46,996 nt of DNA, from contig NZ_RHOR01000017.1 in NCBI RefSeq assembly GCF_003946625.1, positions 1-46,996 of the forward strand. The letters run 5' to 3'. The position numbers and the translations under genes are program-made. A model generated the notes under the pieces. That model ran no database searches. It saw nothing but the letters and a program-made list of their open reading frames with translations, and was not told where the DNA came from. Source of the DNA: Companilactobacillus kedongensis (GTDB lineage: Bacteria; Bacillota; Bacilli; Lactobacillales; Lactobacillaceae). Numbering within the stretch: the first letter of the stretch is position 1; every line of letters starts with the position of its first letter. This document shows, piece after piece, positions 1,364-46,752 of this stretch.

Positions 1364-1537
1364 GCTGGAGAGTTCGAGTAATGGAACCAGTTGTGCAAGT
1401 GTTGTAGAACGGTGGTCTTCCGTTCGTACAACACCGACGATTCTGCGATTTGCGTTAGCAAAGCTCAAAATCGAGTCACCAGACCAAGACTGGGTACGGC
1501 CGCATAACAGGTGGAATTACTCGAAATCGGAAGCGGC
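1364..1537 (-). repeat. structured 3'-UTR element, copy 1
   Basis: Minus-oriented copy, 174 nt. Outer arms TTCGAGTAAT and ATTACTCGAA pair. Inside are three hairpins, including the core CTCGATTTTGAGCTTTGC paired to GCAAATC...GAATCG. Its 5' end overlaps the 3' end of the LysR gene, so the last seven or so LysR codons and the stop are element sequence. No terminator is visible beyond the 3' end because the IS end lies only 57 nt away. Confidence 0.85.
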
Positions 1538-2380
1538 CTCCCGATACATCTCAACAAAATAACTATCCTTCAAAAACACCAAATTAATAGGATGCTCAAT
1601 ATGAAATTCTTTGATCAAGACTTGATTTAACAATCCGTGATCCAATTCGTTTTCCACAAGTGACTTGTACATGAAACTTATCCCTAAGTTTTGTTTTAAC
1701 AACTGAATAATAGTCGTTGGACTAGATATTTCGGAAATGTTTTGGAAATCGTTGATTTGAAAATTTTGAATGGCCAGCCAATTTTCCAAAATATCTCGAC
1801 TTCCGGAACCAGGCTCTCTAACCAAAATATTTTGATCAAATAACTTATCGATCGAGATAGGTTTTTCAAAATCCAATTCAGGATTAGCTACACAGATAAA
1901 TGGTTCACGTTTGATCTGGATCGAATCGAATTCTTTTTTATTAAAATTACCTTCGATCAAGCCAAAATCAATTTTGCCATCGCGTATTTTTGCTAAAACA
2001 TGTTTGGTATTGTTGATCTCGGTGGTCGTGATCCTGAATTTACCAGATAATTTTTTAATGAAATCAGGTAGTAGGGTCGTACTTAGTGATAGAGTACAGC
2101 CCATTTTTAGTTGATTTGAATTTTTTTCATTTTGCAGTGAGTCGATTAGACGAGCACTTTCTAAAGAAATTTTTTTAGCATAGTCAGCTAGTTCAATTCC
2201 AGAATGAGTTAATTTAATTTTGTTATTGTGCTTAGTTACTAAAGTTAAATTCAATTCATTTTCCAAAGAGCTTATCTGTTGAGAAACAGCAGGTTGCGTA
2301 ACGAATAATTGTTGTGCAGTTTTAGTATAGGAGAGAGTCTCCGACAAGAGTGCTAAAGTTTTAAATCTTTTATCTAACAT
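1517..2380 (-). CDS. LysR-family transcriptional regulator (YeiE/CysB-like context)
   Basis: 287-residue LysR-type regulator. The N-terminal winged helix-turn-helix (about residues 3-62) has the hallmark TAQQLFVTQPAVSQQISSLE. An effector-binding domain follows (about 88-287) with the family motif REPGSGSR. It is divergent from a YeiH-family exporter across 107 bp, the usual arrangement of a LysR regulator with its target; YeiE/YeiH in enterobacteria is linked to sulfite stress. The 3' end runs into a repeat element, so the C-terminal EAASDFE is encoded by the repeat. Start ATG at 2380. The ligand is unknown. Confidence 0.85.
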   Translation of the reverse strand: MLDKRFKTLALLSETLSYTKTAQQLFVTQPAVSQQISSLENELNLTLVTKHNNKIKLTHSGIELADYAKKISLESARLIDSLQNEKNSNQLKMGCTLSLSTTLLPDFIKKLSGKFRITTTEINNTKHVLAKIRDGKIDFGLIEGNFNKKEFDSIQIKREPFICVANPELDFEKPISIDKLFDQNILVREPGSGSRDILENWLAIQNFQINDFQNISEISSPTTIIQLLKQNLGISFMYKSLVENELDHGLLNQVLIKEFHIEHPINLVFLKDSYFVEMYREAASDFE

Positions 2381-2487
2381 AATTACCTCATAAGTATTAT
2401 TTATGGTATAAAAATAATTACTAATTTTTACTTATATCATTTCTATATTATCATTTAAATCATGTTGATAGAGAGAGGAATATAATT
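2381..2487. promoter_or_regulatory. divergent lysR/yeiH promoter region
   Basis: 107-bp AT-rich gap between divergent starts. CATAA and TTATG form an inverted repeat with 7-nt spacing at about 2388-2404, resembling a LysR T-N11-A box beside the lysR start. AGAGAGGAA at about 2471-2479 is the ribosome binding site for the exporter gene. Core promoter elements are ambiguous because the region is so AT-rich. Confidence 0.45.
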
Positions 2488-3504
2488 ATGGGGATTTTTA
2501 AGACAAGAAGTTTTTATTATGCATTTATTCTTACCTTAATATGTTCAGTTTTGGGAACGATTTTGGGTAGTTTACCATATTTAACGATTATTGGAGCGTT
2601 AGTGATCTCGTTAATGTTGGGGATGATATTTCAAATTCATCAACCGGTGATTGACACAGCACGTTCTGGCATCGGATTTATTTCAAATAAATTTCTACGA
2701 TTGGGAATTATTTTATTAGGTTTTAAATTAAATTTGATTGATTTAGCTAATGCAGGTATCAGAACGATTCTGGTAGCTATGATCGTTGTAACTGGAGTGA
2801 TTATTCTAACTTATAATATTGCTCGAAGATTTGGTGTTAATAAAGAATTGGCTATTCTTACCGCTAGTGGAACTGGCATTTGTGGGGCAGCTGCTGTTAT
2901 GGGGGTTTCTCCACAGATCAAAGTTAATGCTGATAAAGAGGCACAGAAAAAAGATGATGAAGTGTTAGCAGTGGCCATTGTGGCAATTTTGGGAACAGTG
3001 TTTACTTTGATTGAAATTGCTATTAAGCCATTGCTACATATGAGTTCTATACAGTTTGGAGTTATGGCTGGTGGTTCATTACATGAAATAGCCCATGCAA
3101 TTGCGACTGGTGGAGCCGGTGGAGCAATCAGTTTAAGTTCAGCTATCATTACAAAATTATCCAGAGTTTTGATGTTAGCCCCAGCTGCTTTGATTATTGG
3201 GATTTGGTATCAGAAAACGGAATCAAAAGGATCAACAGCTAAACAGAAATTACCAATTCCTTGGTTCATGGGTGGTTTTATTTTAGCCAGTATTATAGGT
3301 ACATTTATTCCAATGCCAGCGGATCTTTTAAACGGATTAGTTAAACTAGCCTACTTAGTTTTAGGAATGGCAATGGCTGCCTTGGGTATGAGTGTTAATT
3401 TTAAAGTTTTCGTTACTAGTGGTAAAAAGGCTGTTTTAGCGGCATCCGTTGTATCAGTTGTTTTGTTAGGATTTATGATCGTAGTTAGTAAGGCGTTTTT
3501 CTAA
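2488..3504 (+). CDS. YeiH-family putative sulfate/anion exporter (UPF0324)
   Basis: 338-residue inner-membrane protein with about ten hydrophobic segments. It carries the family signatures RLGIILLGFKLNL (about residue 71), a GTGICGAAAVMG loop (about 129) and GGSLHEIAHAIATGGAG (about 196). The family is annotated as putative sulfate exporters; the substrate here is unproven. Control by the divergent LysR gene is likely. The stop codon is followed after 1 nt by a structured 3' element and then a bidirectional terminator, giving a defined single-gene transcript. Confidence 0.85.
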   Translation: MGIFKTRSFYYAFILTLICSVLGTILGSLPYLTIIGALVISLMLGMIFQIHQPVIDTARSGIGFISNKFLRLGIILLGFKLNLIDLANAGIRTILVAMIVVTGVIILTYNIARRFGVNKELAILTASGTGICGAAAVMGVSPQIKVNADKEAQKKDDEVLAVAIVAILGTVFTLIEIAIKPLLHMSSIQFGVMAGGSLHEIAHAIATGGAGGAISLSSAIITKLSRVLMLAPAALIIGIWYQKTESKGSTAKQKLPIPWFMGGFILASIIGTFIPMPADLLNGLVKLAYLVLGMAMAALGMSVNFKVFVTSGKKAVLAASVVSVVLLGFMIVVSKAFF

Positions 3505-3505
3505 T

Positions 3506-3680
3506 GTCGCTTACGGTCAAAAAAGAGAAGGCCTGCCGTGTGGAACAACCTGAGCCATAGTCTCAGATCTCGATTTTGAGCTTTGCAAAGACCGCAAATT
3601 TCAAAATACGTCCAGTATTGTAAGCGATGAATCGCTAACAATACTAGCCACGGCTGGTCTTATCTTTTTTGATCTTCAGC
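3506..3680 (+). repeat. structured 3'-UTR element, copy 2
   Basis: 175 nt in the direction of the upstream gene. Outer arms GATCAAAAAAGA-like and TCTTTTTTGATC-like pair (CAAAAAAGAGAAGGCC with GGTCTTATCTTTTTTG). The conserved core CTCGATTTTGAGCTTTGC is present and the third hairpin is CAGTATTG...CAATACT. It starts 1 nt after the stop and ends 26 nt before an intrinsic terminator. Confidence 0.85.
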
Positions 3681-3706
3681 TAATATTGATCATCCATTTT
3701 ATAAAC

Positions 3707-3755
3707 AAAAAAGGGTAATCCTGAGAATTATTAAAGTTCTCAGAATTACCCTTTT
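3707..3755. terminator. bidirectional intrinsic terminator
   Basis: AAAAGGGTAAT pairs with ATTACCCTTTT, with an inner CTGAGAA/TTCTCAG stem and A/T runs on both sides. It serves the convergent yeiH and hydroxyisocaproate dehydrogenase transcripts and lies between their two 3' repeat elements. Confidence 0.9.
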
Positions 3756-3798
3756 CAAATTTAAAATTTAATTTACTAAACATAATAGTATCAAACAA

Positions 3799-3970
3799 GC
3801 TGGAGGTAGTGAGTAATGGAATCAGTTGTGCAAGGGGAGTTGAACGGTGGTTTCCCGTTCTTACTCCGCCGACGATTCTGAGATTTGCGTAAGCAAAGCT
3901 CAAAATCGAGTCCCCAGACCAAGGCTGGGACGGTCGCATAACAGATGGAATTACTCGCTACCGGAAGCGA
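3799..3970 (-). repeat. structured 3'-UTR element, copy 3
   Basis: 172 nt, minus orientation. Arms GGTAG-GAGTAAT and ATTACTC-CTACC pair. The inner hairpins CCCAGCCTTGGTCTGGG and GAACGGG...CCGTTC are conserved in form. The 5' end is 14 nt beyond the dehydrogenase stop and the 3' end is 44 nt from the shared terminator. Confidence 0.85.
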
Positions 3971-3984
3971 AAATATAACGCTTG

Positions 3985-4917
3985 TTAAGCTTCCTGATAC
4001 ATAGTAGCAAACTTTTCTTTAATTGTATCAGCAGAATTTTTTAACTTGGCTTCTTCTTCATCAGTCAAATGTAATTCATTAACATACTGGACTCCGCCTT
4101 TTCCTACTACGGCAGGTTGCCCTAAATATGTATCGTATTTCTTATTATAAGTAGAAACTGGACATTCTAGTTGTGCATCGGAGATAACTGATTGAGCTAA
4201 CTTGACGGCACATGTACCAATTCCAAAGCTGGTATAACCTTTACCAGAATGGATGGCCCAGCCGCCGTGTCTGATTTCGTCTTCTAGCTTATCAAGATCT
4301 AAATCTTTACCTTTTGATTTGGCAAATTCTTTTAGGGGATGATTGTTAACTGTGACAGTTGACCAGGCTACAAATTGTGACTCACCATGTTCGCCTAAAA
4401 CATAACCGCCAACATTCTTCGAGTTGGTTCCGAATTGTTCGGCCACGACACGTTGCATTCTAGCTGTATCTAGGAACGTTCCAGTAGCTAAGCATTGTTC
4501 GGCAGTGAATCCGGCTGTTTTTTGAAGATATTGAGCAATTGCATCGCAAGGATTCATAGTGTCCACTAAGACACCATTAAAACCTGATTTAGCAATTTTA
4601 GGTGCAATATCTTTAACGATTTCTCTAGTATATTCAAATTCAGCCCAACGATTTCCTGAATTATGATCCAAAGCATGAATATTTCCAGCTGTGACGAATA
4701 ATACGTCAGCATCTTTTAATTCACTATAATCTTGAATCTTAACTTTAGTCGTTGTATCTAGTCGAGCCTGACAATCTTGTAAATCAAGTTGTTCAGCTAC
4801 TGCTAGTTTTTCATTTTTGTCGATCAAGACTAGTTCGTCTGCGATTCCTTTAGTAACTAATGTATATGCAACGGTAACTCCTACGTGTCCTACACCGATA
4901 ACTCCGAATTTTCTCAT
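3985..4917 (-). CDS. L-2-hydroxyisocaproate dehydrogenase (LDH/MDH superfamily)
   Basis: 310-residue NAD-dependent 2-hydroxyacid dehydrogenase. The Rossmann motif GVIGVGHVGVTVAYTL is at residues 4-19. Other matches are the catalytic region GTFLDTARMQRVVAEQF, the catalytic His in LGEHGESQFVAWS and GKGYTSFGIG. These segments match the L-HicDH branch better than true lactate dehydrogenase, whose usual substrate-loop Gln-Arg motif is absent. It interconverts branched 2-keto acids (for example 2-ketoisocaproate) and L-hydroxy acids. It starts 21 nt after the aminotransferase gene, so the two form one operon on branched-chain keto acids. Substrate preference is inferred from similarity and context. 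Confidence 0.8.
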   Translation of the reverse strand: MRKFGVIGVGHVGVTVAYTLVTKGIADELVLIDKNEKLAVAEQLDLQDCQARLDTTTKVKIQDYSELKDADVLFVTAGNIHALDHNSGNRWAEFEYTREIVKDIAPKIAKSGFNGVLVDTMNPCDAIAQYLQKTAGFTAEQCLATGTFLDTARMQRVVAEQFGTNSKNVGGYVLGEHGESQFVAWSTVTVNNHPLKEFAKSKGKDLDLDKLEDEIRHGGWAIHSGKGYTSFGIGTCAVKLAQSVISDAQLECPVSTYNKKYDTYLGQPAVVGKGGVQYVNELHLTDEEEAKLKNSADTIKEKFATMYQEA

Positions 4918-4938
4918 AATAATGATCCCCTCACTCTT

Positions 4939-5970: not shown

Positions 5971-6011
5971 ATACAATTATCTCCTTGAATGTGTTCTTAA
6001 TTTAGAATAAA

Positions 6012-6047: not shown

Positions 6048-6069
6048 CGTTAGCTCCGATCAATTGGGA

Positions 6070-6165: not shown

Positions 6166-6213
6166 AAGTAGTACCTCCTTTGATTAGAAATTTATTAAAA
6201 TTAAGTTAGACAC

Positions 6214-6836: not shown

Positions 6837-7703
6837 ATGACAACGGCAGTTGTGACAGATACAGCAGCGTACTTAACACCTGAACAAATCGAGAAATATC
6901 ACATTACTGTGTTGCCAGTAACGGTCATTTTAAATGGTAAACAGTATAAAGAAACAGAAGAATTAGATCTTAATACCTTTTATGATTATCTAAAAAATGA
7001 AAAAGAGTTGCCAACTACTTCGCAAGTTTCAATGGGACAAATTGAAGAAGCTTATGACAAACTTGTTGACAGCGGTGTGGATAAAATTATTTCTATCCAT
7101 TTATCTAGCGGTATAACTTCCTTTATGGATAATTTACGCATGTTTTGTAAAAGTTATACACGAGCTAAAGTTTTTCCTGTGGATTCATTGGCCGCCAGTG
7201 CCGGTGAAGCTAATTTATGCCTATTAGCTGGAGCCTTGGTAGCAGAGGGTAAAGAAGCAGAAGAGATCATTCCAGAATTGGAAAAATTGCGAGATACAAC
7301 TAATGTTTATTTTGCCGTTGATGACTTGAAACACTTAATGAGAACTGGACGTTTGAGCAATCGCTCAGCCGTTATTGGTAACTTATTAAATATCAAGCCA
7401 CTATTAACTTTTAATGCTGAAGGAAAGATAATTGCTATTGGCAAAGAAAGAACCATGAAACGTTGTTTACGTTTAATGCTGTTGGAATTGCAAAAGGACC
7501 TTGAACAAGCAGATTATAAGATTCATGCGACTGTAATTGATGCTAACAATGAAGTGCTATCAGAAGCTTGGGTCAATGAATTGCATGAAACTTTCCCCAA
7601 TGTACGTGTTACTATCAGTCATTTGGGACCATCAATCAGTGTTCATACTGGTGAAAAGACAATGGGAATATTGTGGAGTCGTGACTGGCAGAGTATGATT
7701 TAG
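6837..7703 (+). CDS. DegV family protein (FakB-like fatty acid-binding)
   Basis: 288 residues, full length for DegV. N-terminal VVTDTAAYL, the TTSQVSMGQ loop (about 60) and the lipid-contacting SSGITSFMDN motif (about 90) are family marks, as is the later MRTGRLSNRSAVIGNLLNIKPLL. DegV/FakB proteins bind a fatty acid and present it to the kinase FakA for phosphorylation and phospholipid synthesis. No kinase gene is adjacent. GAACGAGGAC precedes the ATG. The structured 3' element begins at the base after the stop. Confidence 0.9.
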   Translation: MTTAVVTDTAAYLTPEQIEKYHITVLPVTVILNGKQYKETEELDLNTFYDYLKNEKELPTTSQVSMGQIEEAYDKLVDSGVDKIISIHLSSGITSFMDNLRMFCKSYTRAKVFPVDSLAASAGEANLCLLAGALVAEGKEAEEIIPELEKLRDTTNVYFAVDDLKHLMRTGRLSNRSAVIGNLLNIKPLLTFNAEGKIIAIGKERTMKRCLRLMLLELQKDLEQADYKIHATVIDANNEVLSEAWVNELHETFPNVRVTISHLGPSISVHTGEKTMGILWSRDWQSMI

Positions 7704-7848
7704 GGTTTCCGTCTCCGGTAACAATGAAGTTGTCCTGCTATGCGACCGACCCGAACCAAGATCTCGAAATCATCGATTCCGTAAGTACGGCTACGCCGCT
7801 CTAACGGAATTGTCACAGCGGGCTAACTTCATTGTTACCTCCGTCTCT
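7704..7848 (+). repeat. structured 3'-UTR element, copy 4 (short form)
   Basis: 145 nt. Arms GGTAACAATGAAGTT and AACTTCATTGTTACC are perfectly complementary. CTGCTATGCGACCGA and the ATTCCGTAAG...CTAACGGAAT hairpin are conserved, but about 30 nt of the middle hairpin is missing. It starts directly after the degV stop and ends 22 nt before a terminator. Confidence 0.85.
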
Positions 7849-10855: not shown

Positions 10856-10944
10856 AGTAATACGCCCCTTTTTATTCGATAATTATATATTAATCTTTGT
10901 AAGCGCTAAACAAAAGGGTTATAAAGTTGATTTTGAGTTAGTTT

Positions 10945-11115
10945 GTCTCCAGGTCTGAGAATATTTACCTGCTATGCGGACCGATCCTAGCCGTTGTCTC
11001 GAATCTCGGTTTGAAGCCTTGTAAAGTTCGACAAGTCTTCAAACGCGCCCGATTGTGCGGGAGCTAAAGCTCCAACGCCACTGCCACAGTTGGTAAATAT
11101 TCTCAGATCTTCCGA
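10945..11115 (+). repeat. structured intergenic element, copy 5 (diverged core)
   Basis: 171 nt. Arms GTCTGAGAATATTTACC and GGTAAATATTCTCAGATC are complementary; CTGCTATGCGGACCG is conserved, while the central hairpins are rewritten but still paired (GACTTGTCGAAC-type stem, GGGAGCTAAAGCTCC). Exception to the 3'-UTR rule: no plus-strand gene ends before it. It lies upstream of the minus-strand aldo/keto reductase, with its 3' end facing the methyltransferase terminator 44 nt away. Confidence 0.8.
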
Positions 11116-11151
11116 CTAAAAAATGGTTCATACTGATTTAAATTGTTAACT

Positions 11152-21613: not shown

Positions 21614-23191
21614 ATGGAACAAAAACAATTAGAAAATGAAGTTAACAAACGTAGAACATTTGCAATTATTTCTCACCCGGATGCTGGTAAGACAACAATT
21701 ACAGAGCAAATGCTCTATTTTGGTGGGGTAATCCGTTCTGCCGGTACTGTTAAGGCCAAAAAATCTGGTCAATTTGCTACCAGTGACTGGATGGAAATCG
21801 AAAAGAAACGTGGTATTTCTGTTACCAGTTCTGTTATGCAATTTCATTACCACGATAAAGATGTTAATATCCTGGATACACCAGGACATGAGGACTTCTC
21901 AGAAGATACCTATCGTACTTTGATGGCGGTCGATGCTGCGGTCATGGTTATTGATTCTGCTAAAGGTATCGAGCCACAAACCAAGAAATTATTTAAAGTT
22001 GTTAAAAAACGTGGTATTCCAATTTTTACCTTTATGAATAAGTTAGACCGTGATGGTCGTGATCCGCTAGATTTGATTGCTGAACTAGAGGACCTACTCA
22101 ATATTGAAGGCTGTGCAATGAACTGGCCGATCGGTATGGGTAAGGAATTAAAGGGACTTTACGATATTGCCAATAATCGTGTTGAACTTTACCGTAAAGA
22201 AGGCGACGATCGTTATTTACCATTAACTGATGGTAAACTTCCTGCCGGGAACGAAGAATTAGAAGGCGAAGGGGTTTATGAACAAGCAATTGGTGAAGTT
22301 GATCTTATTAAAGAAGCCGGAAATACTTTCGACCTTGAAAAAATCCAAAATGGTGATCAGACGCCAGTTTTCTTTGGTTCAGCCTTGACAAACTTTGGTG
22401 TACAAACATTCTTGGATACATTCCTTGATATGGCACCAGCTCCTGCTGAACATAAGATGCAAGATAGTGAAGCGGTCGTTAAACCAGATGACCCAGAGTT
22501 TTCAGCCTTTGTCTTTAAGATCCAGGCTAATATGAACCCTAATCACCGTGATAGAATCGCTTTTGTACGTATCTGTTCAGGTGAATTTGAAAAGGGTATG
22601 GATGTAACTTTACAAAGAACTGGCAAAGTTATGCGTTTGAATAATGCCACTGAATTCATGTCCGATCAAAGAGAGCAAGTTAAGACAGCTGTTGCCGGTG
22701 ATATCGTTGGTTTATACGATACTGGTAATTTCCAAATCGGTGATACGATCTACACTGGTAAAAAGTCAGTTCAATTTGAAGATCTTCCACAATTTACACC
22801 AGAAATGTTTATGGAAGTTCAAGCTAAAAACGTTATGAAACAAAAATCTTTCCACAAGGGAATGCAACAACTTGTTCAAGAAGGTGCCGTTCAGTTGTAT
22901 AAGACTTATACGACCAATGACTACATCTTGGGTGCCGTTGGTCAACTGCAGTTTGAAGTTTTCCAATTCAGAATGAAGAATGAATATAACTGTGATGTTG
23001 TAATGAAGCCAATCGGTTCTAGAACAGCCCGTTGGATCGATCCTGAACAACTTGATCCATCAATGTCTTCGACACGTAATATGTTGGTTAAAGATCTTGA
23101 TGATCAACCATTGTTCTTGTTTGAAAACAGATTTGCTGAGAATTGGTTTGCCAATAAGTATCCAGATGTAAAATTAACTTCTAAATTGTAG
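21614..23191 (+). CDS. prfC: peptide chain release factor 3
   Basis: 525-residue translational GTPase that recycles RF1/RF2 from the ribosome. G1 SHPDAGKTT (about 20), switch motif [13 protein letters not shown]3 [16 protein letters not shown] and G4 [10 protein letters not shown] are intact, followed by domains II and III. TAGGAGAT precedes the ATG. Probably cotranscribed with the CBS-domain gene. The 3' element begins 12 nt after the stop and a terminator follows it. Confidence 0.96.
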
Positions 23192-23203
23192 TATTGTGGT
23201 GTG

Positions 23204-23378
23204 AACCGCCTACGGAAACGAGGGTGTGTGCCTGCTGTGGAACCGGCATCAGCCAAGGTCTGATGCCTCGATTTTGAGCTTTGCTGTCGCAAATCTCGAA
23301 ATCGTTTATTCCGTAAGTACGGCTAACGCCGTTCTAACGGAATTGTCACTGCTGGCACGCACCCTCGTTTCCTCCGGC
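23204..23378 (+). repeat. structured 3'-UTR element, copy 6
   Basis: 175 nt after prfC. Arms GGAAACGAGGGTGTGTGCC and GGCACGCACCCTCGTTTCC pair over 19 bp with one G-T wobble. All three inner hairpins are present: GGCATCAGCC/GGTCTGATGCC, CGATTTTGAGCTTTGC/GCAAATCTCGAAATCG, and ATTCCGTAAG.../CTAACGGAAT. A good reference copy for the family. Confidence 0.88.
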
Positions 23379-23405
23379 TTTAGATAACATGTAAATAAAA
23401 AATAT

Positions 23406-23439
23406 ATTCCTTGATAGATTCCTATTGAGGAATTTTTTT
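23406..23439 (+). terminator. intrinsic terminator after prfC
   Basis: ATTCCTT pairs with GAGGAAT, with seven Ts following; 27 nt beyond the 3' element. Confidence 0.75.
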
Positions 23440-23452
23440 GTCCAAAATTAGG

Positions 23453-23504
23453 TAAAAAAAATCTCCTAAATTACACCCAGTAAAAATGGTATAGCTTAAG
23501 AGAT
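23453..23504 (-). terminator. intrinsic terminator of the GNAT gene
   Basis: On the minus strand ATCTCTTAAGCTA pairs with TAATTTAGGAGAT, with wobbles and one mismatch, followed by eight Ts. It lies 29 nt beyond the 3' element of this transcript. Confidence 0.75.
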
Positions 23505-23533
23505 ACTATATTAATATTTTATCCTGTTATATA

Positions 23534-23707
23534 GCCGGAGATTTTTAGTAATGGAACCAGTCGCCAAAATGGCGTTGGAACGGTGATTTTCCGTTCTTAC
23601 GGCATGGACGATTCTGAGATTTGCGTAGGCAAAGCTCAAAATCGAATCTTCAGACCTTGGCTGAAGATGGTCCGGCAACAGGTGGAATTACTAAAAATCG
23701 GAGGCGG
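23534..23707 (-). repeat. structured 3'-UTR element, copy 7
   Basis: 174 nt, minus orientation. Arms GATTTTTAGTAAT and ATTACTAAAAATC are perfect complements. Hairpin one is ATCTTCAGCC/GGTCTGAAGAT, hairpin two CGATTTTGAGCTTTGC/GCAAATCTCAGAATCG, hairpin three GAACGG/CCGTTC. It begins 10 nt after the GNAT stop. Confidence 0.87.
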
Positions 23708-23717
23708 AAAAGAAAAC

Positions 23718-24272
23718 TCAATACCTATATTCCCGACGCAATATAGAATAACAAACCTCATCGCAAACGCCATTATTGTTTAAACCCTTGTCACGCAAGA
23801 TTCCCTCAAATCTCATATGACACTTAGTCATAACTCGTCCAGAATTAGGATTGTTATCGTCGTGTTTGGTTTCAATGCGATTAACATCAGTCATATCGAA
23901 CAGATACTCGATAATTCTTTCCAATGCTTCGGGTGCATATCCATGTCCCCACCATAGTGAGCCAATACAATAACCTAGTTCCATGGTATAAGTTTTTTCA
24001 TCGATATTGACTACGGAAATAGTTCCGATCAATTCGTGTGTTTCTTTGATCATGATACCCCAGACGTACGTGGATAAATCAAAGTAATCCTTTTCCATTT
24101 GAACTAAAAAATCTTGGGCTGTTTCGACTGACTGATAAGTATGCCAAGTCAAATATTTAGTAACTTTGTAGTCACTGGCCCAATTGTTAAACATTTCGTT
24201 AGAATCTTCAATCGTTAATCGTCGTAAAATCAAGCGGTCAGTTTCAAGCGGTATAGTTCCAACATGCTTCAT
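23718..24272 (-). CDS. GNAT family N-acetyltransferase (RimJ/RimL type)
   Basis: 184 residues from the ATG at 24272 (MKHVGTIPLETDRLILRRLT), which has GGGAGA 7 nt upstream; an ATG nine codons earlier lacks one. GNAT hallmarks: ETDRLILRRL start, LGYCIGSLWWGHGYAPEAL acetyl-CoA loop (about 107-126) and VNRIETKHDDNNPNSGRVM. It transfers acetyl from acetyl-CoA to an amine, in this subfamily often a protein N-terminus or small molecule. Acceptor unknown. Stands alone with its own 3' element and terminator. Confidence 0.88.
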   Translation of the reverse strand: MKHVGTIPLETDRLILRRLTIEDSNEMFNNWASDYKVTKYLTWHTYQSVETAQDFLVQMEKDYFDLSTYVWGIMIKETHELIGTISVVNIDEKTYTMELGYCIGSLWWGHGYAPEALERIIEYLFDMTDVNRIETKHDDNNPNSGRVMTKCHMRFEGILRDKGLNNNGVCDEVCYSILRREYRY

Positions 24273-32249: not shown

Positions 32250-32506
32250 ATAAAAGTTGTGATTAGGAAAAGTAAGTAATGACCAATCAAACAGAGAGCC
32301 TTGGTAGCTGGAAACAAGACGGAAGTTATTATTGAACACACACCTATGAACTGTAGAGCTGAATTCAGTAGGCTTTACCGATATTTGGTTCGTTATCCAA
32401 GTTGACTCAGCCAACATGAGGTCTAATTCGCAAGGATTAGATAAAATGAGGTGGAACCGCGTTTATACGTCCTCTTAGCATTTATTTGCTAAGGGGACTT
32501 TTTTTG
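32250..32506 (+). promoter_or_regulatory. T-box riboswitch, histidine-specific
   Basis: Leader with AGAGAG and GCTGG stem I landmarks (about 32293-32310), a specifier loop GAA-CAC-A with His codon CAC at 32337-32339, and the T-box GAGGTGGAACCGCG (32448-32461), whose TGGAA-type bulge pairs with the uncharged tRNA 3' end. The intrinsic terminator at 32469-32506 is CGTCCTCTTAGC paired with GCTAAGGGGAC plus seven Ts. Uncharged tRNA-His should favour the antiterminator and switch on hisZ-hisC. Confidence 0.93.
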
Positions 32507-40270: not shown

Positions 40271-40445
40271 GCCGCCTACGAGTGAAAGAAAATTGGTCCG
40301 CTGTGCGACCGACACGAACCGAGGTTTCGTGTCTCGATTTAGAGCTTTGCTGTCGCAAATCTCGAAATCGTCGATTCCGTAACGTCGGAAGACCATCGCC
40401 GTAACGGAATTTTCACTGCTGACCAATTTTCTTTCGCCCTCCGGC
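40271..40445 (+). repeat. structured 3'-UTR element, copy 8
   Basis: 175 nt, 10 nt after the hisC stop. Arms GAAAGAAAATTGGTC and GACCAATTTTCTTTC are complementary. The first hairpin is rewritten as ACACGAACC/GGTTTCGTGT and the core TTTAGAGCTTTGCTGTCGC.../AAATCG is retained. Ends 71 nt before the his operon terminator. Confidence 0.87.
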
Positions 40446-40516
40446 TCAGGTTTATTTTGGATTTAAATAGTTATTTAGACTGTTTGTTGTAATTAAATAT
40501 ATAAGTTTAAATAATA

Positions 40517-40549
40517 AGAGAAAACCAATCATTATGGCTTTCTCTTTTT
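40517..40549. terminator. intrinsic terminator of the his operon
   Basis: AGAGAAAACC pairs with GGCTTTCTCT (one mismatch), followed by five Ts on the plus strand; on the minus strand a T-rich tract also follows. Confidence 0.8.
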
Positions 40550-40568
40550 AATGTATATTTCAATATAA

Positions 40569-40741
40569 GCCGGAGAATTAGAGTAATGGAACCAGTTGTG
40601 CAAGTGATGTTAGAAGGTGATTTTCCTTCTTACAACACCGACGATTCTAAGATTTGCGATAGCAAAGCTTGGAATCGAGTTCCCAGACCAAGGCTGGGGA
40701 CGTTCGCATAACAGGTGGAATTACTCTAATTCGTAGGCGGC
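40569..40741 (-). repeat. structured intergenic element, copy 9, without an upstream gene
   Basis: 173 nt, minus orientation. Arms GAATTAGAGTAAT and ATTACTCTAATTC are perfect complements. Full three-hairpin core. Exception: no minus-strand gene ends at its 5' end, which lies upstream of the alarmone synthetase gene. Its 3' end still faces the his terminator, 19 nt away. Confidence 0.87.
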
Positions 40742-40808: not shown

Positions 40809-41492
40809 GTGATATTAGAACGAGAGAATATGATCAATATTAACCAGATCAAAAAGGAACTTGGAGAAATTCTTAATGGTAATGAAGAAGTTGAAGAGTT
40901 CAGTGCTTTGGTCAGTTATTACCAGCTTTGCCGGGCAGCCGTTGGAGAATTCGGAACTAAACTAGAGAATTTAGATGCTGATTATCAGGTTCGCCACGAT
41001 CACAATCCGATTCATCATATCGAAGTTCGAATGAAGGATGTTGGTAGTTTGTTCGGTAAGTTAAAGAGGAAAGAACTTCCCAGACGTTTTGAAAGTATTC
41101 CTAATCATATTTTTGATATTGGTGGTCTAAGAGTTGTTACTAATTATTTGGATGATGTTTATACTGTTGCCGATAATTTATTGGCTCAAGATGACGTTAA
41201 ACTTATAAAAAGAAAAGATTATATTAAAAACCCAAAGCCAAGTGGTTATCGTAGTTTGCATTTGGTTGTATCTGTGCCGGTTTTTCAAGCTGATAATGTG
41301 CAAGTGACGCCAGTAGAAATTCAGATTCGTACGATCGGAATGGATATGTGGGGGAGTTTGGAGCATAAATTACGTTACAAGACTGATGCACCTTCTGATA
41401 AAGTTGCTAAATATTCTGAGGAATTACAAGGATATGCTGACGAAATAAATAATATCGAATCGAATATGCAAAATATTTTCCATGATATTTAG
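40809..41492 (+). CDS. relP: small alarmone synthetase, RelP/YwaC-like
   Basis: 227 residues, GTG start with GGAGG 8 nt upstream. RelA/SpoT synthetase domain only, no hydrolase or TGS/ACT domain. HNPIHHIEVRMKDVGSL, IFDIGGLRVVTNYLDD, YIKNPKPSGYRSLHLVV and VEIQIRTIGMDMWGSLEHKL match the RelP (YwaC) branch rather than RelQ. Makes (p)ppGpp from ATP and GTP/GDP, typically under cell-wall or other stress. Monocistronic. A remnant of the structured 3' element follows 5 nt after the stop. Confidence 0.88.
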   Translation: MILERENMININQIKKELGEILNGNEEVEEFSALVSYYQLCRAAVGEFGTKLENLDADYQVRHDHNPIHHIEVRMKDVGSLFGKLKRKELPRRFESIPNHIFDIGGLRVVTNYLDDVYTVADNLLAQDDVKLIKRKDYIKNPKPSGYRSLHLVVSVPVFQADNVQVTPVEIQIRTIGMDMWGSLEHKLRYKTDAPSDKVAKYSEELQGYADEINNIESNMQNIFHDI

Positions 41493-41497
41493 GTGGT

Positions 41498-41530
41498 TAA
41501 CTGCTGGTCGACTCACTCGCGCTCTTCGGC
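41498..41530 (+). repeat. 3'-terminal fragment of the structured element, copy 10
   Basis: AACTGCTGGTCGACTCACTC followed by the CTCTTCGGC end matches only the last fifth of the family (CACTGCTGG-arm-CTCCGGC). The 5' arm and core are gone. It lies between the relP stop and a terminator, the normal site of the family. Confidence 0.6.
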
Positions 41531-41565
41531 TAGATTTGCGGAATTATTTGAAGTTTATAGAGAAT

Positions 41566-41628
41566 AAAAAAAGCTCCTTAGGTATACAGAATTTTATTAA
41601 AAATCTGTATTCTTAGGGAGTTTTTTTA
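41566..41628. terminator. bidirectional terminator between relP and the yhgE gene
   Basis: AAAAAAAGCTCCT...ATACAGA pairs with TCTGTAT...AGGGAGTTTTTTT, with A and T runs on both sides. Confidence 0.9.
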
Positions 41629-41661
41629 TTGTTCTATTTTGTAAAATTAAAGCACATAAGA

Positions 41662-41758
41662 GCCGGAGATTTAGAATAATGGAACCAGTCGTGCAAGTGG
41701 AGTAGAACGGTGGTTTTCCGTTCGCACAACAGGTGGAATTATTCTAAAACGTAGGCGG
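41662..41758 (-). repeat. structured 3'-UTR element, copy 11, internally deleted
   Basis: 97 nt. Outer arms TTTAGAATAAT and ATTATTCTAAA are kept, and so is the AACGGAAAACCACCGTT hairpin, but about 75 nt containing the first two hairpins is missing, leaving CTGTTGTGCG fused to the third hairpin. It starts 5 nt after the yhgE-type gene and ends 33 nt before the terminator. Confidence 0.85.
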
Positions 41759-41763
41759 AACTT

Positions 41764-44355
41764 TTAAACAAGACTATGTTCAGATGCTTCTTTAGTATAA
41801 TCAATTTCTTTAATACGTGACTTACGACGAATAAAGAACAATAAGCATAGAACGACAAATGCTAAGCTGACTAGAGATGTAAAGATCATTTGTGGTATTG
41901 CCGAGTTACCTGTCATCAGAGTATTTCTTAGTCCACTAACTGTGTATGACATTGGTAACCATGGATTGATATCATTGAAGAATTTATCCGACAATTGAAT
42001 TGGGTAAGTACCAGCTGATCCGCCCAGTTGGAGAACTAATAAGACTAAACTGATAAAGGACCCGACTTTTCCTAGTACTAGATTCAACCAGGAGACTATC
42101 ATCATGAACATTAATGCGGTTAAGAAAATCATGATAAAGGTTGCAAAAGGATGAACTGGTGCTAGTCCATCGATGAATTTCATTAAGAAATAGACGATGA
42201 CTGTTTCACCAACAACGAAGGCTGTATTAAGTGAAGCTTTACTTGCCCACCATGCAACACCACTACGAGGGAATTTTCTAGGTGTATATGTATCAAACAT
42301 TAGATTGAAGGCTAACGCACCGATAAATAGTGAAACTGACAGCATGTAAGGTGCCATACCGGTACCATTATTAGGTGCATCGTCACGTTCTGTATGCTTA
42401 GTTGTTGTAGGTTTGGATATTTGATTATAAGTCAACTTCGTAGGGTTTACCTTGGCTTGTTTGGCACCATTTGAAAGCTGTGATGCTAATTCTCTATTAC
42501 CATTGTAAACTTGATTGATCCCGTTGCCCATTTGTGCTGAACCGCTAGATAGCGTCTGGGAGCCACTAGATATTTGAGTTGCTCCACTGGCTAATGTATT
42601 AGCACCAGATGTCAATTGTGAACCATTAGATTGAAGTGTATTTAAACCAGATGTCAGAGTATGAGCTCCAGAGTCAAGTTGTGAAACGCCACTTTGTAAT
42701 GCTGGCATTTGACCGTTCATTGAACCGATCCCACTGGCCAAAGTAGCAGCGCCGTTATTTAAAGTAGAGCTGTTATTTGCTAATTTACCAGTACCAGCTG
42801 CGATTTGGTTTGTCCCACTGGCAAGTTGTGAACTACTTGAATTTAGTTGACCGATACCTTGCGTCAATTGATTCATACCACTTGAGGCGGTTCCTAATTG
42901 AGTAGTGATCGTTTGTGATCCATTAGCAAGCTGTGCTAAGGCTGCAGCAAGTTCTGCTTGAGAATCACCAGCGGTTGTCAAAGCAGTCTGTAGTCCTGAC
43001 AATTGGCCAGTCGATCCGCTTGTCAAACTTGATAGATCGCTATTTAAACTTGCGGCAGCACTTTGAAGAGCGGATGTATCTGAAGATCCAGTATTAGAAC
43101 TATTAACAGCTGCGACCATAGCTGCCTTTTGATCTGCGGTTAGGCCTTGTTCATCTGCGGCTGCAGAAACTTTAGCTGCAATATTTGAAGTACTTGAGTT
43201 GGATTGTGCTGCAATTGCTTGTTGCAAGGCTTGCATATCAGTTTTAATCGCAGCTGACTGTGCAGTTGAATTTGAAAGCTGACTTTGGGCACTGGATAAA
43301 GCGCCACTCAATTGCTTAAGCTGTGATTGGCTATTATTAACGCCGTCACTGACCTTTTGTAATTGAGAAGTAAGTGTACCGCTGGCTGTATAAAGCTGTC
43401 CAATACCAGAATTTAAGGTATTTGAGCTACTTGCCAAAGTATTAGTACCACTAACTAAAGCGTTAGTTCCAGTGTTTAAAGTATTGGCAGCTGAATTTAG
43501 TTGATCAACACCAGATGTATAACTTTGCACACCAGAGCTTAGAGTACCTGATCCGGTTGCTAATTGGCTGACACCACCAGCTAAAGTTTTCGACTGAGTA
43601 TTTAAAGAATCAAGTCCACTAGTCAACGTTTGACTACCAGAAGCAGCCTGATTAACACCGGAAATGTATTGGTTCAAGCCATTACTTAAAGTAGTTGCAC
43701 CATTAGAGAAGGTCAATGAACTACTTGCCAATGTATTTAAACCAGAAGTTATTTGGTCATTGGCGGAGGCTAGTTCTTTACTACCAGAGGTTAACTTATC
43801 TCCACCTTTAGCAGCAGTTTGCATTCCCTTACCGAGTTTTTGAATAGCAGCAAAGAGAGTTTTAGAGTAGGTTTTAGTAACTTGTCTTGAAACTTGTTCG
43901 GCTGCTGTTTTAGCGGCGGAAGCCGTCATTTTTGAAGCGATAAAGTTATGCCCAGCACTTGTTTTGTAATCAAGTACCATTTTGTCAGGCTTTTTATTTA
44001 AAAGAGTTGTTGCATTTTTGGAGAAGTCTTTAGGAATAGTAATTACCATATAGTATTTACCTTCATCTAATCCTTTAGAGGCTTCTTTTTTAGAATCCAA
44101 GACCTTGAAATCCATAGCTTCAGATTTTTTGAGGTTTTTGGCCAGATCTTGTCCTACGGATAACTTGGTACCACGATAGGTTACTGATTTATCATTATCG
44201 ATAACTGCAACGGGCAGGTTGCTGAGTTCTCCATATGGATCCCACATCGATTTCAGGAATGTAACTGAGTAAATCGATGGGACAAACATAATAACAATCA
44301 GGACAAGCATCATAAATTTGTGTTTCAGCAAATATTGCCATTCTGCTTTAATCAT
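41764..44355 (-). CDS. YhgE/Pip-domain membrane protein
   Basis: 863 residues. One N-terminal transmembrane segment (about 11-31) with the family start EWQYLLKHKFMMLVLIVIMF; an extracytoplasmic YhgE region; a long central tract (about 190-640) of Ser/Gly-rich helical repeats such as LASGTNQIAAGTGKL and QLTSGANTLASG, probably an extended coiled rod; and five or six C-terminal transmembrane segments (about 690-850) like ABC-2-type permeases. The lactococcal relative Pip is a phage receptor, and related EsaA-type proteins serve type VII secretion; exact role here unknown. Divergent from a TetR regulator. Confidence 0.88.
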   Translation of the reverse strand: MIKAEWQYLLKHKFMMLVLIVIMFVPSIYSVTFLKSMWDPYGELSNLPVAVIDNDKSVTYRGTKLSVGQDLAKNLKKSEAMDFKVLDSKKEASKGLDEGKYYMVITIPKDFSKNATTLLNKKPDKMVLDYKTSAGHNFIASKMTASAAKTAAEQVSRQVTKTYSKTLFAAIQKLGKGMQTAAKGGDKLTSGSKELASANDQITSGLNTLASSSLTFSNGATTLSNGLNQYISGVNQAASGSQTLTSGLDSLNTQSKTLAGGVSQLATGSGTLSSGVQSYTSGVDQLNSAANTLNTGTNALVSGTNTLASSSNTLNSGIGQLYTASGTLTSQLQKVSDGVNNSQSQLKQLSGALSSAQSQLSNSTAQSAAIKTDMQALQQAIAAQSNSSTSNIAAKVSAAADEQGLTADQKAAMVAAVNSSNTGSSDTSALQSAAASLNSDLSSLTSGSTGQLSGLQTALTTAGDSQAELAAALAQLANGSQTITTQLGTASSGMNQLTQGIGQLNSSSSQLASGTNQIAAGTGKLANNSSTLNNGAATLASGIGSMNGQMPALQSGVSQLDSGAHTLTSGLNTLQSNGSQLTSGANTLASGATQISSGSQTLSSGSAQMGNGINQVYNGNRELASQLSNGAKQAKVNPTKLTYNQISKPTTTKHTERDDAPNNGTGMAPYMLSVSLFIGALAFNLMFDTYTPRKFPRSGVAWWASKASLNTAFVVGETVIVYFLMKFIDGLAPVHPFATFIMIFLTALMFMMIVSWLNLVLGKVGSFISLVLLVLQLGGSAGTYPIQLSDKFFNDINPWLPMSYTVSGLRNTLMTGNSAIPQMIFTSLVSLAFVVLCLLFFIRRKSRIKEIDYTKEASEHSLV

Positions 44356-44384
44356 ATTTTTCTCCCAATTTCAAAAAAGTGTTG

Positions 44385-44510
44385 TATTATAGATGTGAAT
44401 ATATAATACTCACATGAGTATAAATAATAATAACTATGAAACTAAAATTCCACAACAAATTTGCTTAAAGTGTGGATTAAACCACATCGTTAAAATGTGG
44501 GTACTACAGG
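44385..44510. promoter_or_regulatory. yhgE/tetR divergent control region with stacked palindromes
   Basis: Three inverted repeats share TGTG/CACA halves: ATGTGA...TCACAT (about 44393-44416), TGTGG-ATTAAA-CCACA (about 44471-44486) and CCACAT-CGTTAAA-ATGTGG (about 44481-44500). TATAAT on the minus strand near 44388-44393 is the likely yhgE -10. These are plausible TetR-type operators. The 164-bp gap holds no gene. Confidence 0.55.
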
Positions 44511-44520
44511 GAGTCGAATT

Positions 44521-45087
44521 ATGAGAATAGATAAAAGGGTACAAAGAACTAATCAAGCATTGAAAAATTCATTTAGGGATTTATCTAAAGTCCATAAATA
44601 TCGCGATATAACCGTTAAAGAACTGACCGATAACGCCAAGATAAACCGTAAGACATTTTACCTGCATTACGATTCTATCGATGATTTTGTTAATACCTTT
44701 GCTGACGAAATGGCTAGTCAATTACTAGTTATAATTGCTGGTAAACCGTTACACGATACATTAACTCATCCTGGAGATTTGTTTGACAGTGTAGTCGATT
44801 ATTTTGAACAATCCCGAGATTTCTATGCATTTATCATCACGTCAGATGACTACAGTTTCCTCTCAAGAAGAGTGGAGCGGATCGTCTGTGATGGTTTTGC
44901 CAGCGCCTTGAAAGATGAATTCAATATTAGTCAAATTGATGCCTATATCAGTGCAAGCTTTATTATCAGAAATACCTTGATGCTCTTTAGATTGTTTGAA
45001 AAAGGGCAGGTTAAATTAACTAAAAATGAATTCAAAGATCGTTTGATCCGTTTGAATCAATCTGGATTAAAGACCTTCTTAGACTAA
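44521..45087 (+). CDS. TetR-family transcriptional regulator
   Basis: 188 residues from the ATG at 44521 (MRIDKRVQRTNQALKNSF), with GGGAG 8 nt upstream; an earlier in-frame ATG lacks a site. N-terminal helix-turn-helix at about 10-55 (DITVKELTDNAKINRKTFYLHY), then a helical ligand domain. Divergent from the YhgE protein gene and likely its repressor, acting on the palindromes between them. Followed directly by a terminator. Confidence 0.9.
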   Translation: MRIDKRVQRTNQALKNSFRDLSKVHKYRDITVKELTDNAKINRKTFYLHYDSIDDFVNTFADEMASQLLVIIAGKPLHDTLTHPGDLFDSVVDYFEQSRDFYAFIITSDDYSFLSRRVERIVCDGFASALKDEFNISQIDAYISASFIIRNTLMLFRLFEKGQVKLTKNEFKDRLIRLNQSGLKTFLD

Positions 45088-45125
45088 AAAATCCCTCCAA
45101 CTCGTAATGAGTGAGAGGGATTTAT
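45088..45125. terminator. bidirectional terminator
   Basis: AAATCCCTC...ACTC pairs with GAGT...GAGAGGGATTT between the convergent TetR and EIIA-like genes. Confidence 0.85.
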
Positions 45126-45139
45126 TATTGTGGGATTGT

Positions 45140-45589
45140 TTAACTCTCAACTCCCTGTAATAGTAAATCATTAATAGTATCAGTTAATTGATCAGGATCA
45201 ACTTTTGCATCTTGTAATGCATTGGCATTATTTAATAATTTTTGTTTGATACCGTCATAATCGATTTCTACGTCTGCTGCGGCTACAATGGCAACGAAGA
45301 TATTGACCGGCTTTTTATCGACGCTTAACCAATCGATTGGCATTTCTGAAGTAAAGACAAAGACTTGCGGATCTGAAACTTCACTAGCACTAGCTTTTGG
45401 CATAGCAATTTTTTGACCGATAGATGATGTATTAGTTGCTTCACGGGCTAAGAAGCTGCTTTTTACTTCTTGTTCGGAAATATTAAGTTTCTTGGCCACA
45501 GCGTATGAAATTAAAGATAGTGCCTTGACCTCATCATAACCTGACATTGGTAAGTTTGCGTAAACGTTATTTTTATTTAGTTTCATCAT
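45140..45589 (-). CDS. PTS EIIA (fructose/mannitol-type)-like protein lacking the active-site histidine
   Basis: 149 residues, full length for the EIIA-2 fold. FLAREATNTSSIGQKIAMPKAS aligns with the canonical F..RE...S.GIG..AIPH motif, but the phosphoacceptor His is Lys, so phosphotransfer by the normal route is not expected. The following strands (VFVFTSEMPIDWLSVDKKPVNIFVAIVAAAD) are well kept. It has no EIIB/EIIC neighbours. A LacI-type operator nearly identical to that of the HAD/LacI operon precedes it. Possibly a regulatory or binding version of EIIA. Function unknown. Confidence 0.8.
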   Translation of the reverse strand: MMKLNKNNVYANLPMSGYDEVKALSLISYAVAKKLNISEQEVKSSFLAREATNTSSIGQKIAMPKASASEVSDPQVFVFTSEMPIDWLSVDKKPVNIFVAIVAAADVEIDYDGIKQKLLNNANALQDAKVDPDQLTDTINDLLLQGVES

Positions 45590-45623
45590 AAAACACTCCT
45601 TTAAATTTGTTCAACTGAAGTGT

Positions 45624-45649
45624 AAGGTGTGAAACGCGTTTTAGGTCAA
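45624..45649 (-). promoter_or_regulatory. LacI-type operator/promoter of the EIIA-like gene
   Basis: TGAAACGCGTTTTA (45630-45643) directly downstream of -35 TTGACC (45644-45649), with TACACT 19 nt from the -35. The operator plus -35 differ from the site at 31266-31286 at only one of 21 positions. Confidence 0.8.
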
Positions 45650-45707
45650 GGGTGATTTTAAAATAAGTTGGAAACCCTTACAGACACAAGCAAAGAAAAT
45701 TTTCAGT

Positions 45708-45733
45708 TATAATTTATTGTAGAACCCGTTTCA
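45708..45733 (+). promoter_or_regulatory. AEC promoter with degenerate operator
   Basis: TATAAT near 45708-45714 is the likely -10 of the AEC gene. TAGAACCCGTTTCA (45720-45733) just downstream matches the LacI-type operator at 11 of 14 positions when read on the other strand, so it may be a weaker site for the same regulator. Confidence 0.5.
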
Positions 45734-45753
45734 TAACTAAGAGAGGAAATTAC

Positions 45754-46671
45754 ATGAACGTTGCACAATTAACTAATCAAATTGTCCTAATGTTTTGCTT
45801 GATGCTAGTCGGTGTTTTGATCAATAAAGTTGGTTTCATGAAAGAGTCAACCTCAAATGATCTGACTAATATTTTGTTATATGTTGTTTCACCATGTTTG
45901 ATCATCAATGCTTTTGAGCAAAATTATTCTGCCAAAAGAATTCAACAGTTCATTTTAGTGGCAATCGGGATACTTATCTTCTATATTATTGCCATTCTTG
46001 CTGCACATTTTATTTTTGGTAGGATCAAGAATTCCAATCTGCGCCGGATAACCCAATATGGAAGTGTTTATTCCAATGCTGGATTTATGGGCATTCCACT
46101 TGTCAGTTCCTTATTCGGTGCTGAAGGTGTATTTTTTGCAGTCGTATCCTTAGCCGGATTTAACATTTTCAGTTGGACACATGGAATATCATTATTTAGA
46201 ACTAAAGATAACGATGAACCAGTTAATTGGAAACAGATTTTATTAAATCCCAATATTATTGCAATAGTCTTGGGATTGATAATGTTTCTAACTTCGTTTA
46301 GAATTCCGGGAACCTTGAATCAAGTCGTTAAATATGTTGGATCAGTCAATACTCCTTTGTCGATGATCATTATTGGTAATAGTTTGGCTAATATTAAGTT
46401 CTCAAGAGAGATGTTGGATAAAAATATCGGTTTGACTATTTTACTGAGGAATATTATTTTTCCTATTATGATGGTATTTTTATTGAAAATGTTAGGAGTG
46501 TCGGAAGTCGCACTGTATACGACTGTTATTATGTCGGCCTGTCCGGTAGCGGGAATCGTAGTATTATTTACATTGCAAGCACATGATGATGCTGGGCCAG
46601 CGATATCATTAATGAGTTTGTCGACGGTTTTGAGTTTGGTTACAATTCCGTTGGTTTTTGCTTTTGTATAG
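45754..46671 (+). CDS. AEC (auxin efflux carrier) family transporter
   Basis: 305 residues, ten hydrophobic segments. The family pattern is clear: MLVGVLINKVGFM near the start, YGSVYSNAGFMGIPLVSSLFG (about 109-129) and MSACPVAGIVVLFTLQ near the end. Bacterial members export or import malate or other organic acids. Divergent from the EIIA-like gene, and both may answer to the same LacI-type protein. AGAGAGGAAA precedes the ATG. Substrate unknown. Confidence 0.88.
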   Translation: MNVAQLTNQIVLMFCLMLVGVLINKVGFMKESTSNDLTNILLYVVSPCLIINAFEQNYSAKRIQQFILVAIGILIFYIIAILAAHFIFGRIKNSNLRRITQYGSVYSNAGFMGIPLVSSLFGAEGVFFAVVSLAGFNIFSWTHGISLFRTKDNDEPVNWKQILLNPNIIAIVLGLIMFLTSFRIPGTLNQVVKYVGSVNTPLSMIIIGNSLANIKFSREMLDKNIGLTILLRNIIFPIMMVFLLKMLGVSEVALYTTVIMSACPVAGIVVLFTLQAHDDAGPAISLMSLSTVLSLVTIPLVFAFV

Positions 46672-46680
46672 AGGGTGAGC

Positions 46681-46752
46681 CTTCCGCCTACGAACGTGAG
46701 GGAGTCGACCTGCTGTGTGGACCGTTCTCAGCCAAGGTCTGAGAACTCGATT
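46681..46752 (+). repeat. structured 3'-UTR element, copy 12, truncated
   Basis: The 5' part is intact: TTCCGCCTACG, arm GTGAGGGAGTCGACC, CTGCTGTGTGGACCG, and hairpin one GTTCTCAGCC/GGTCTGAGAAC. Family similarity stops abruptly after CTCGATT at about 46752. The 3' half is not in the window, suggesting insertion or deletion at that point. Confidence 0.8.

Follow-up and report, generated by a model that had tools for sequence, protein, structure and literature searches.

Interspersed structured repeats are common. In Streptococcus pneumoniae, the BOX elements are small structured intergenic repeats, 125 of which were counted in one genome and judged parasitic; they are modular, occur with target duplications and are over-represented between convergent genes, and the parts of that source at hand describe no tail-to-tail rule (PMC3049150). 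Repeats of the REP/REPIN/BIME type are, as far as the consulted portion of their source tells, palindromic, mostly intergenic and biased to gaps between unidirectional and convergent genes. In the same portion, REPs are palindromes of 20-40 bp that carry a GTAG or CGTC tag, the former type being associated with RAYT genes; these repeats form inverted dimers, sometimes supply a stop codon and in most families prefer heterodimers, a preference suggested to protect them from hairpin-cutting enzymes; it also counts EFAR among the miniature inverted-repeat transposable elements (MITEs) (PMC3733652). Efa-1 of Enterococcus faecalis is, in the excerpt of its description available, a 163-nt stem-loop family with 65 members (PMC2267715). 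Here we compare with these systems a family of structured intergenic elements in contig NZ_RHOR01000017.1 of Companilactobacillus kedongensis; the window that we analysed is this whole contig (C9, 46,996 bases), part of a 2.27-Mb genome in 37 contigs (labelled G000).

Our preferred reading, to which we assign a probability of roughly 0.57, is that these elements are a family of non-autonomous mobile or formerly mobile repeats, similar in kind to REP, BOX and MITE sequences and often arranged as a paired terminator cassette. It builds on the observed fold, copy number, patchy distribution, placement, pairing and turnover at orthologous sites, and on target duplications observed around a pair-bearing unit with terminal inverted repeats (TIRs) in one other genus.

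Fold, copy number and range

The fold was examined in alignment A1, which comprises 30 full-length copies taken from the C. kedongensis genome and from which we built a covariance model, R1, of 174 positions with 52 pairs and 2 branch points. RNAalifold applied to A1 recovered the three hairpins and the long variable arm that a first-pass annotation, made from the letters of the window, had drawn, and a fourth helix (XGAC paired with GTCX') around hairpins one and two was added by hand to the RNAalifold structure. Standard pairs fill 95.3% of the 1648 cells of A1 against 81.5% after shuffling, and 39 of 55 pairs show two-sided change against 20.4 in the shuffled alignment. When the partner columns are slid by one to three positions, pairing falls to 31-43%, a control that is biased in favour of the structure because the structure was derived from A1 itself. 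The added helix shows two-sided change at 2 of its 4 pairs, with 90% of cells paired, while the outer arm, which is the most variable part of the element, is still complementary, with two-sided change at 12 of 13 pairs. Most elements measure 145-187 nt and share this branched fold.

Hairpin one is the conserved core, with the motif AGCC..GG-T-CT and an additional T in most copies. Its pattern occurs three times in the window and in none of 100 shuffles, and a shorter version matches the genome 56 times, but not once when reversed; a chance origin is excluded because neither shuffled nor reversed patterns give a match. When 17 copies from four taxonomic families are aligned, nine columns never vary: two in ACCG, the whole of AGCC, and the G, C and T of GGTCT.

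Within the window, R1 finds 11 of the 12 places reported by the first-pass annotation, with E values from 2e-42 to 4e-4 (nine copies with both ends, one internally deleted and one truncated). The twelfth is supported by an orthologous locus described below, and the reported coordinates proved accurate to a few bases. The genome-wide R1 listing holds 150 matches out of 751 candidates, and counts resting on it are lower bounds; it yields at least 149 non-overlapping copies, bearing out the expectation of further copies in the genome. Four contigs of this genome, 437 kb in all, were also read directly, with genes called by a home-made gene caller and 123 R1 matches reduced by hand to 75 places, the better strand being kept. 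Since the genome-wide listing holds 62 places in the same 437 kb, the total, by extrapolation, is probably near 180 copies. Density is regional: among the matches listed on contigs C1, C23, C36 and C34 it reaches 8 per 25 kb, and 100 kb of C1 holds no listed match.

The search of relatives that had been proposed extended the family well beyond this species. With the C. kedongensis genome counted in both samples, R1 matches occur in 24 of 36 genomes of the genus and in 62 of 301 genomes of the family, spread over 9 of its 40 sampled genera, and named records with matches include Lactiplantibacillus and Lapidilactobacillus species. In a sample of 246 genomes of the order, 14 have matches, 10 of them outside the family; these ten give weaker matches (best E from 9e-8 to 5e-5), several at many places. 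Counted by eye, exact AGCCWWGGTCT is present at 19 of 20 loci outside the family in this sample and ACCG precedes it at 16, and the third hairpin seems to be arranged differently in these copies. A class-wide scan with the hairpin-one pattern found, besides C. kedongensis, one match each in 17 of 249 genomes against 22 for the reversed control; this sample includes one other genome of the family and therefore says little about the family. No match was found in plasmids by blastn with two elements, or in phages in a search with one element. In viral contigs, the hairpin-one pattern occurs in at least 120 stretches, which we take to be chance because each of the 80 listed holds a single match.

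Three observations made in relatives concern the extent of the family. Two loci on different contigs of genome G429 (L236 and L237) carry the same 165-nt element with near-identical flanks, suggesting a larger recent duplication. Behind prfC, C. mishanensis (L073) has a large inverted-repeat sequence with no R1 match, and C. zhongbaensis has one with a weak match (L087, 5961-6128, E 4e-5); read by eye, these inverted repeats indicate that more divergent family members may exist.

Placement behind stop codons and tail-to-tail pairs

In the 437-kb sample, none of the 75 copies overlaps a called gene beyond a tolerance of 40 nt, in agreement with their first description as intergenic. The stop codon of the gene on the 5' side faces the element in 60 of 74 copies, at a median distance of 11 nt, and 52 of these 60 lie no more than 42 nt behind it. 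Copies occupy 27 of 62 convergent gaps, 2 of 65 divergent gaps, 20 of 149 codirectional gaps of at least 30 nt and none of the 65 codirectional gaps below that length. An element in a convergent gap is necessarily preceded on its 5' side by a sense gene, so we compared distances to test polarity: for all 11 unpaired copies in such gaps, less DNA separates the 5' end from its stop codon than separates the 3' end from the opposite gene (p 0.001). Among unpaired copies in codirectional gaps, 8 are sense and 3 antisense, an orientation that is not significant (p 0.23). Two genomes of other genera, G321 (genus g38) and G228, follow a weaker version of this placement, with a sense gene before 12 of 15 copies (36-133 nt) and 10 of 15 copies (8-312 nt), respectively.

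Elements also occur in pairs. Among the 149 matches listed genome-wide, 47 of 48 neighbours less than 300 nt apart are convergent, with their 3' ends facing, and one is in tandem; the 47 are 7-230 nt apart, 46 of them by at least 47 nt. The directly read contigs place 50 of 75 copies in 25 convergent pairs whose spacers, except one of 484 nt, measure 81-183 nt, the usual spacer being about 120 nt and the whole cassette about 470 bp. Each of 8 codirectional gaps contains two copies, so pairing is more than two genes each having a copy of their own. By a strict rule, 12 of 24 spacers contain a terminator-like hairpin; crude block shuffles gave 4.7 on average and 11 at most.

By an arm-motif rule devised in this analysis, 69 copies fall into classes A (23), B (31) and C (15); distance clustering splits off class C and leaves A and B unseparated, the A/B division resting on the motif rule. 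The 23 full pairs comprise 16 A-B, 1 A-A, 2 B-B, 2 B-C and 2 C-C combinations, and the 18 mixed pairs, compared with a permutation mean of 14.1 (p 0.06), are only suggestive of a preference for unlike classes. A homologous spacer is common to four pairs (E from 7e-6 to 2e-12), which fits copying or conversion of the whole cassette.

Outside C. kedongensis, the R1 copies of G321 and G228 are mostly lone among the matches listed, although in our reading several G321 copies stand beside a partner too divergent for R1. Loci beyond the family include a convergent pair (L220) and a tandem pair (L238). Two C. kedongensis pairs have long spacers: on C22 (L055, 1674-2527) a convergent pair surrounds 854 nt with three short plus-strand open reading frames (ORFs), and the 484-nt spacer on C23 (171852/172521) holds a short gene that, by eye, we take to be an antitoxin.

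Copies in the window and at orthologous sites

The window copies that start at 1364, 3799, 23534, 40569 and 41662 lie on the minus strand and the others on the plus strand. Three intact pairs combine a class B left member with a class A right member. In pair 1, the left element (3506..3680, 113.4 bits with R1) starts one base past the gene at 2488-3504 and faces the right one (3799..3971, 185.0 bits) across a 118-nt spacer (3681..3798) whose hairpin, set between A and T tracts, is terminator-like on both strands and scores by the strict rule. Pair 2 begins 13 nt past the prfC stop codon (23205..23378, 166.3 bits) and ends with the element at 23534..23708 (183.6 bits); its 155-nt spacer (23379..23533) has a hairpin that is terminator-like by eye and is not scored by the strict rule. 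Pair 3 follows the hisC stop codon by 10 nt (40271..40445, 153.4 bits), has a 123-nt spacer (40446..40568) with a terminator-like hairpin scored by the strict rule, and closes with 40569..40741 (187.2 bits), which is antisense to a RelA/SpoT-domain gene at 40809-41492. Behind that gene stand the remains of a fourth arrangement. A 33-nt 3' remnant of a class B element (41498..41530) has no R1 match, but it resembles, as judged by eye, the 3' tail of a full R1-matched element at the orthologous locus of a related genome (L217). The spacer that follows (41531..41661) has a terminator-like hairpin and is homologous to the spacers of three other pairs of the genome (E about 4e-9 to 2e-10), and the class A element beyond it (41662..41759, 67.2 bits) has lost hairpins one and two and kept the arm and hairpin three.

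The remaining window copies are single. The full class A element at 1364..1537 (181.2 bits) supplies with its 5' end the last codons and the stop of a LysR-type gene (1517-2380, a 21-nt overlap). A short class B element (7708..7845, 73.0 bits), 4 nt past the gene at 6837-7703, has a deletion that removes parts of hairpins one and two. The full class C element at 10942..11116 (117.5 bits) is antisense to both neighbouring genes. Near the contig end, a truncated class B element (46683..46752; 27.6 bits over 46683-46826) continues into other sequence (46753-46996) in place of its 3' half; since the orthologous copy in L206 is complete, a rearrangement or insertion has occurred at this edge. Two other features of the window are a T-box leader (32250-32477; Rfam RF00230, 115.6 bits) that precedes a gene block with hisC as its last gene, probably a histidine operon, and, near the contig start, a minus-strand ORF (722-1252) with transposase-type helix-turn-helix domains from Pfam, likely part of an insertion sequence.

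Comparison with close relatives reveals turnover at these sites. The window PrfC is 99% identical to that of C. keshanensis, whose prfC site has one copy and a short remnant of the other; C. tucceti has both copies with different arms, and C. jidongensis and C. nodensis have no element there. At the hisC-relA site, the spacer differs and the element is shortened in one relative (G016); a second (G032) has a remnant and a third (G003) almost nothing. Altogether, in 11 comparisons at nine sites, which were chosen for having an R1 match in the relative, copies differ in presence, class or completeness. Remnants retain tips or paired arms, which fits deletion within a palindrome.

Mobility, rival explanations and described repeats

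Signs of movement come from G321, where a shared unit of about 545 bp consists of a TIR, about 68 nt, an element, a spacer, an inverted second element and a TIR. Both TIRs were found at 20 of 35 copies examined and were absent from 15 (17-nt TIR, at most 6 mismatches), the bounded unit typically measuring 538-551 bp. An exact target duplication flanks 8 of the 20 TIR-bearing copies (7-9 bp in seven of them, 6 bp in the eighth); at these lengths, a mismatched-flank control gives at most 0.005. G321-type TIRs are present at 2 of 15 copies in G228. In C. kedongensis, 70 element edges have T on the left in 73% and on the right in 99%, with a C-poor left flank, and pairs end in inverted GCCGCCTACG-like tips with no further TIR outside. 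Separately, Companilactobacillus huachuanensis has a unit of about 214 bp with CTAAAGGTTGAAAG-type inverted repeats within the spacer of a convergent pair (L080, 3358-3571).

If the elements are mobile repeats, their identity would lie in a folded shape: a self-complementary variable outer arm with an internal loop near its tips, a four-base helix around two hairpins, and a third hairpin. Copies would settle between the stop codon and the terminator of a gene, with the 5' end against the stop, and two would often stand tail to tail about a terminator-like spacer, the cassette of about 470 bp being copied or exchanged whole. The Companilactobacillus copies would also have arrived by transposition, a putative enzyme would recognise the folded DNA strand, and effects on mRNA 3' ends would be a by-product. 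We consider unlikely the more specific proposal that the family is an old Lactobacillales class of hairpin-defined mobile DNA, marked by a near-invariant ACCG-N-AGCC..GG-T-CT with one bulged T, that moves as a heterodimeric cassette together with a bidirectional terminator of its own, inserts in a set direction after stop codons and, as folded single-stranded DNA, is recognised by an enzyme unlike any known type of transposase.

Several results weigh against mobility. No target duplication was found in C. kedongensis around 70 single elements or 24 pairs, so that movement in this genome is something we infer, and no G321-type TIR (at most 2 mismatches in 16) occurs in its 437 kb. The CTAAAGGTTGAAAG-type TIR bounds element-free units as well as the G321 cassettes, and the element pair of G321 may therefore be a passenger of another MITE; no transposase gene lies between two TIRs in the seven bare-TIR loci of two genomes to which that search was limited. 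A Y1 transposase of the RAYT type, tried as mobiliser by analogy with REPs, does not track the elements: PF01797 is absent from 6 of 11 genomes with many matches and present in 7 of 12 without any, and C. kedongensis has only a 36-position match to it at a contig end. The relatives compared yielded no clean, exactly bounded empty site, and several orthologous copies retain their class and much of their arm. The polarity, too, could reflect selection at mRNA ends.

This last point leads to the possibility, doubtful in our view, of a cis-acting 3'-UTR (untranslated region) RNA whose fold adjusts termination or keeps 3' exonucleases away from the mRNA end, with pairs serving convergent transcripts. 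It would account for the 52 of 74 copies that follow a sense stop codon by no more than 42 nt, for the 11 of 11 unpaired convergent-gap copies with the 5' end nearer its stop, and for the excess of spacer hairpins (12 of 24 against 4.7); yet a sense gene is missing from the 5' side of 14 of 74 copies, 3 of 11 unpaired codirectional-gap copies are antisense, the same genes lack the element in relatives (prfC in C. jidongensis and C. nodensis, for example), and 12 of 36 congeners have no match. A transcript fold under selection should show more G-U than A-C stem defects, and we counted both in 67 full copies, after 56 of 123 alignment rows, mostly opposite-strand duplicates and fragments, had been dropped. 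Over all positions there are 134 G-U against 90 A-C defects, which would favour RNA and thus tells against mobile DNA. Three wobble-rich positions, however, account for 67 G-U and 2 A-C defects, including 23 of the G-U in hairpin three (25 against 2) at one of them and 24 of those in the middle arm (32 against 15) at another; without them the count is 67 against 88 (p 0.11). The outcome depends on this exclusion, for which the rule (more than 25% in one column pair) was our own choice, and this dependence is a further point against our reading. We read the three positions as sequence fixed by descent, although the totals allow the opposite reading, and the other stem positions as held at the DNA level or as decaying freely after a copy arises. 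With loss, swapping and remnants at orthologous sites and no G-U preference outside three positions, a conserved RNA family is an interpretation that receives no support, though it keeps some probability. The layout and density given by the first-pass annotation were right; subclasses, stop-codon polarity, convergent pairing, the terminator-like spacer, the fourth helix and the wide range were absent from it.

Two further explanations operate at the DNA level, and we regard both as very unlikely. Cruciform-prone pairs might serve as binding sites for a nucleoid protein or a topoisomerase, or act as insulators where transcription converges; a similar architectural role has been proposed for BIMEs. 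Such a role would agree with the convergence of the pairs and with an occupancy that peaks in convergent gaps (27 of 62, compared with 2 of 65 for divergent ones), but it sits poorly with the 8 codirectional gaps that also hold two copies and with the patchy presence among close species, and no candidate protein has emerged. Alternatively, these may be old repeats that exchange by homologous recombination, their complementarity kept by template switching and gene conversion, with neither selection nor an enzyme. The hisC-relA sequence of G016, which resembles, with 78% identity across about 170 nt, the spacer behind relA, the presence of different classes at one site in different species, and the paired arms retained in deletion remnants all speak for such exchange. 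Left unexplained by it are the first seeding of well over 100 sites and the nine columns invariant across four families. Mobile or formerly mobile repeats remain our preferred reading of the family as a whole.

Rfam, BOX and REP do not accommodate these elements, although among known kinds BOX, REP and similar interspersed DNA repeats come closest. At gathering thresholds, Rfam matched no element in the window or in seven loci of relatives, consistent with the original statement that no known family fits, and a permissive scan of 23100-23800 gave a best E of 0.87. Membership in BOX was tested by sequence, the boxA 18-mer with one mismatch allowed giving 0 matches in the C. kedongensis genome (it occurs in 32 of 395 genomes, all of one genus, g43, out of 80 sampled), and by profile, R1 run with filters off on 12 BOX loci reaching a best E of 0.005 away from the BOX copy. 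REP/REPIN membership was rejected on the branched 174-position fold and on the absence, by eye, of a GTAG or CGTC tag at 70 listed edges. With the BOX, REP and Rfam tests negative, we file the family among structured interspersed repeats, outside those families. The literature searched, mostly papers open without subscription, contained no description of it, and no counterpart to its combination of a core recognisable across several families, polarity behind stop codons and tail-to-tail pairs about terminator-like spacers. In lactic acid bacteria the element alters what lies behind many genes; if it is mobile, it would be a terminator cassette of natural origin and might exemplify a new mechanism by which hairpin DNA moves.

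In several of the seven BOX copies that we folded, an internal loop likewise lies close to the tips of a long outer arm. Efa-1 and EFAR, which we assume to be the same family, are likewise small stem-loop repeats, a comparison made by description only. The pair-bearing unit of G321, with its TIRs and target duplications, resembles a MITE, whereas in C. kedongensis no TIR outside the element and no duplication were found. The elements differ from REPs in being mostly 145-187 nt branched folds that no Y1 transposase tracks, and they offer another system, unrelated to REPs, in which to ask why palindromic repeats favour heterodimers; by analogy with REPs, protection from hairpin-cutting enzymes could explain the A-B pairs here too.

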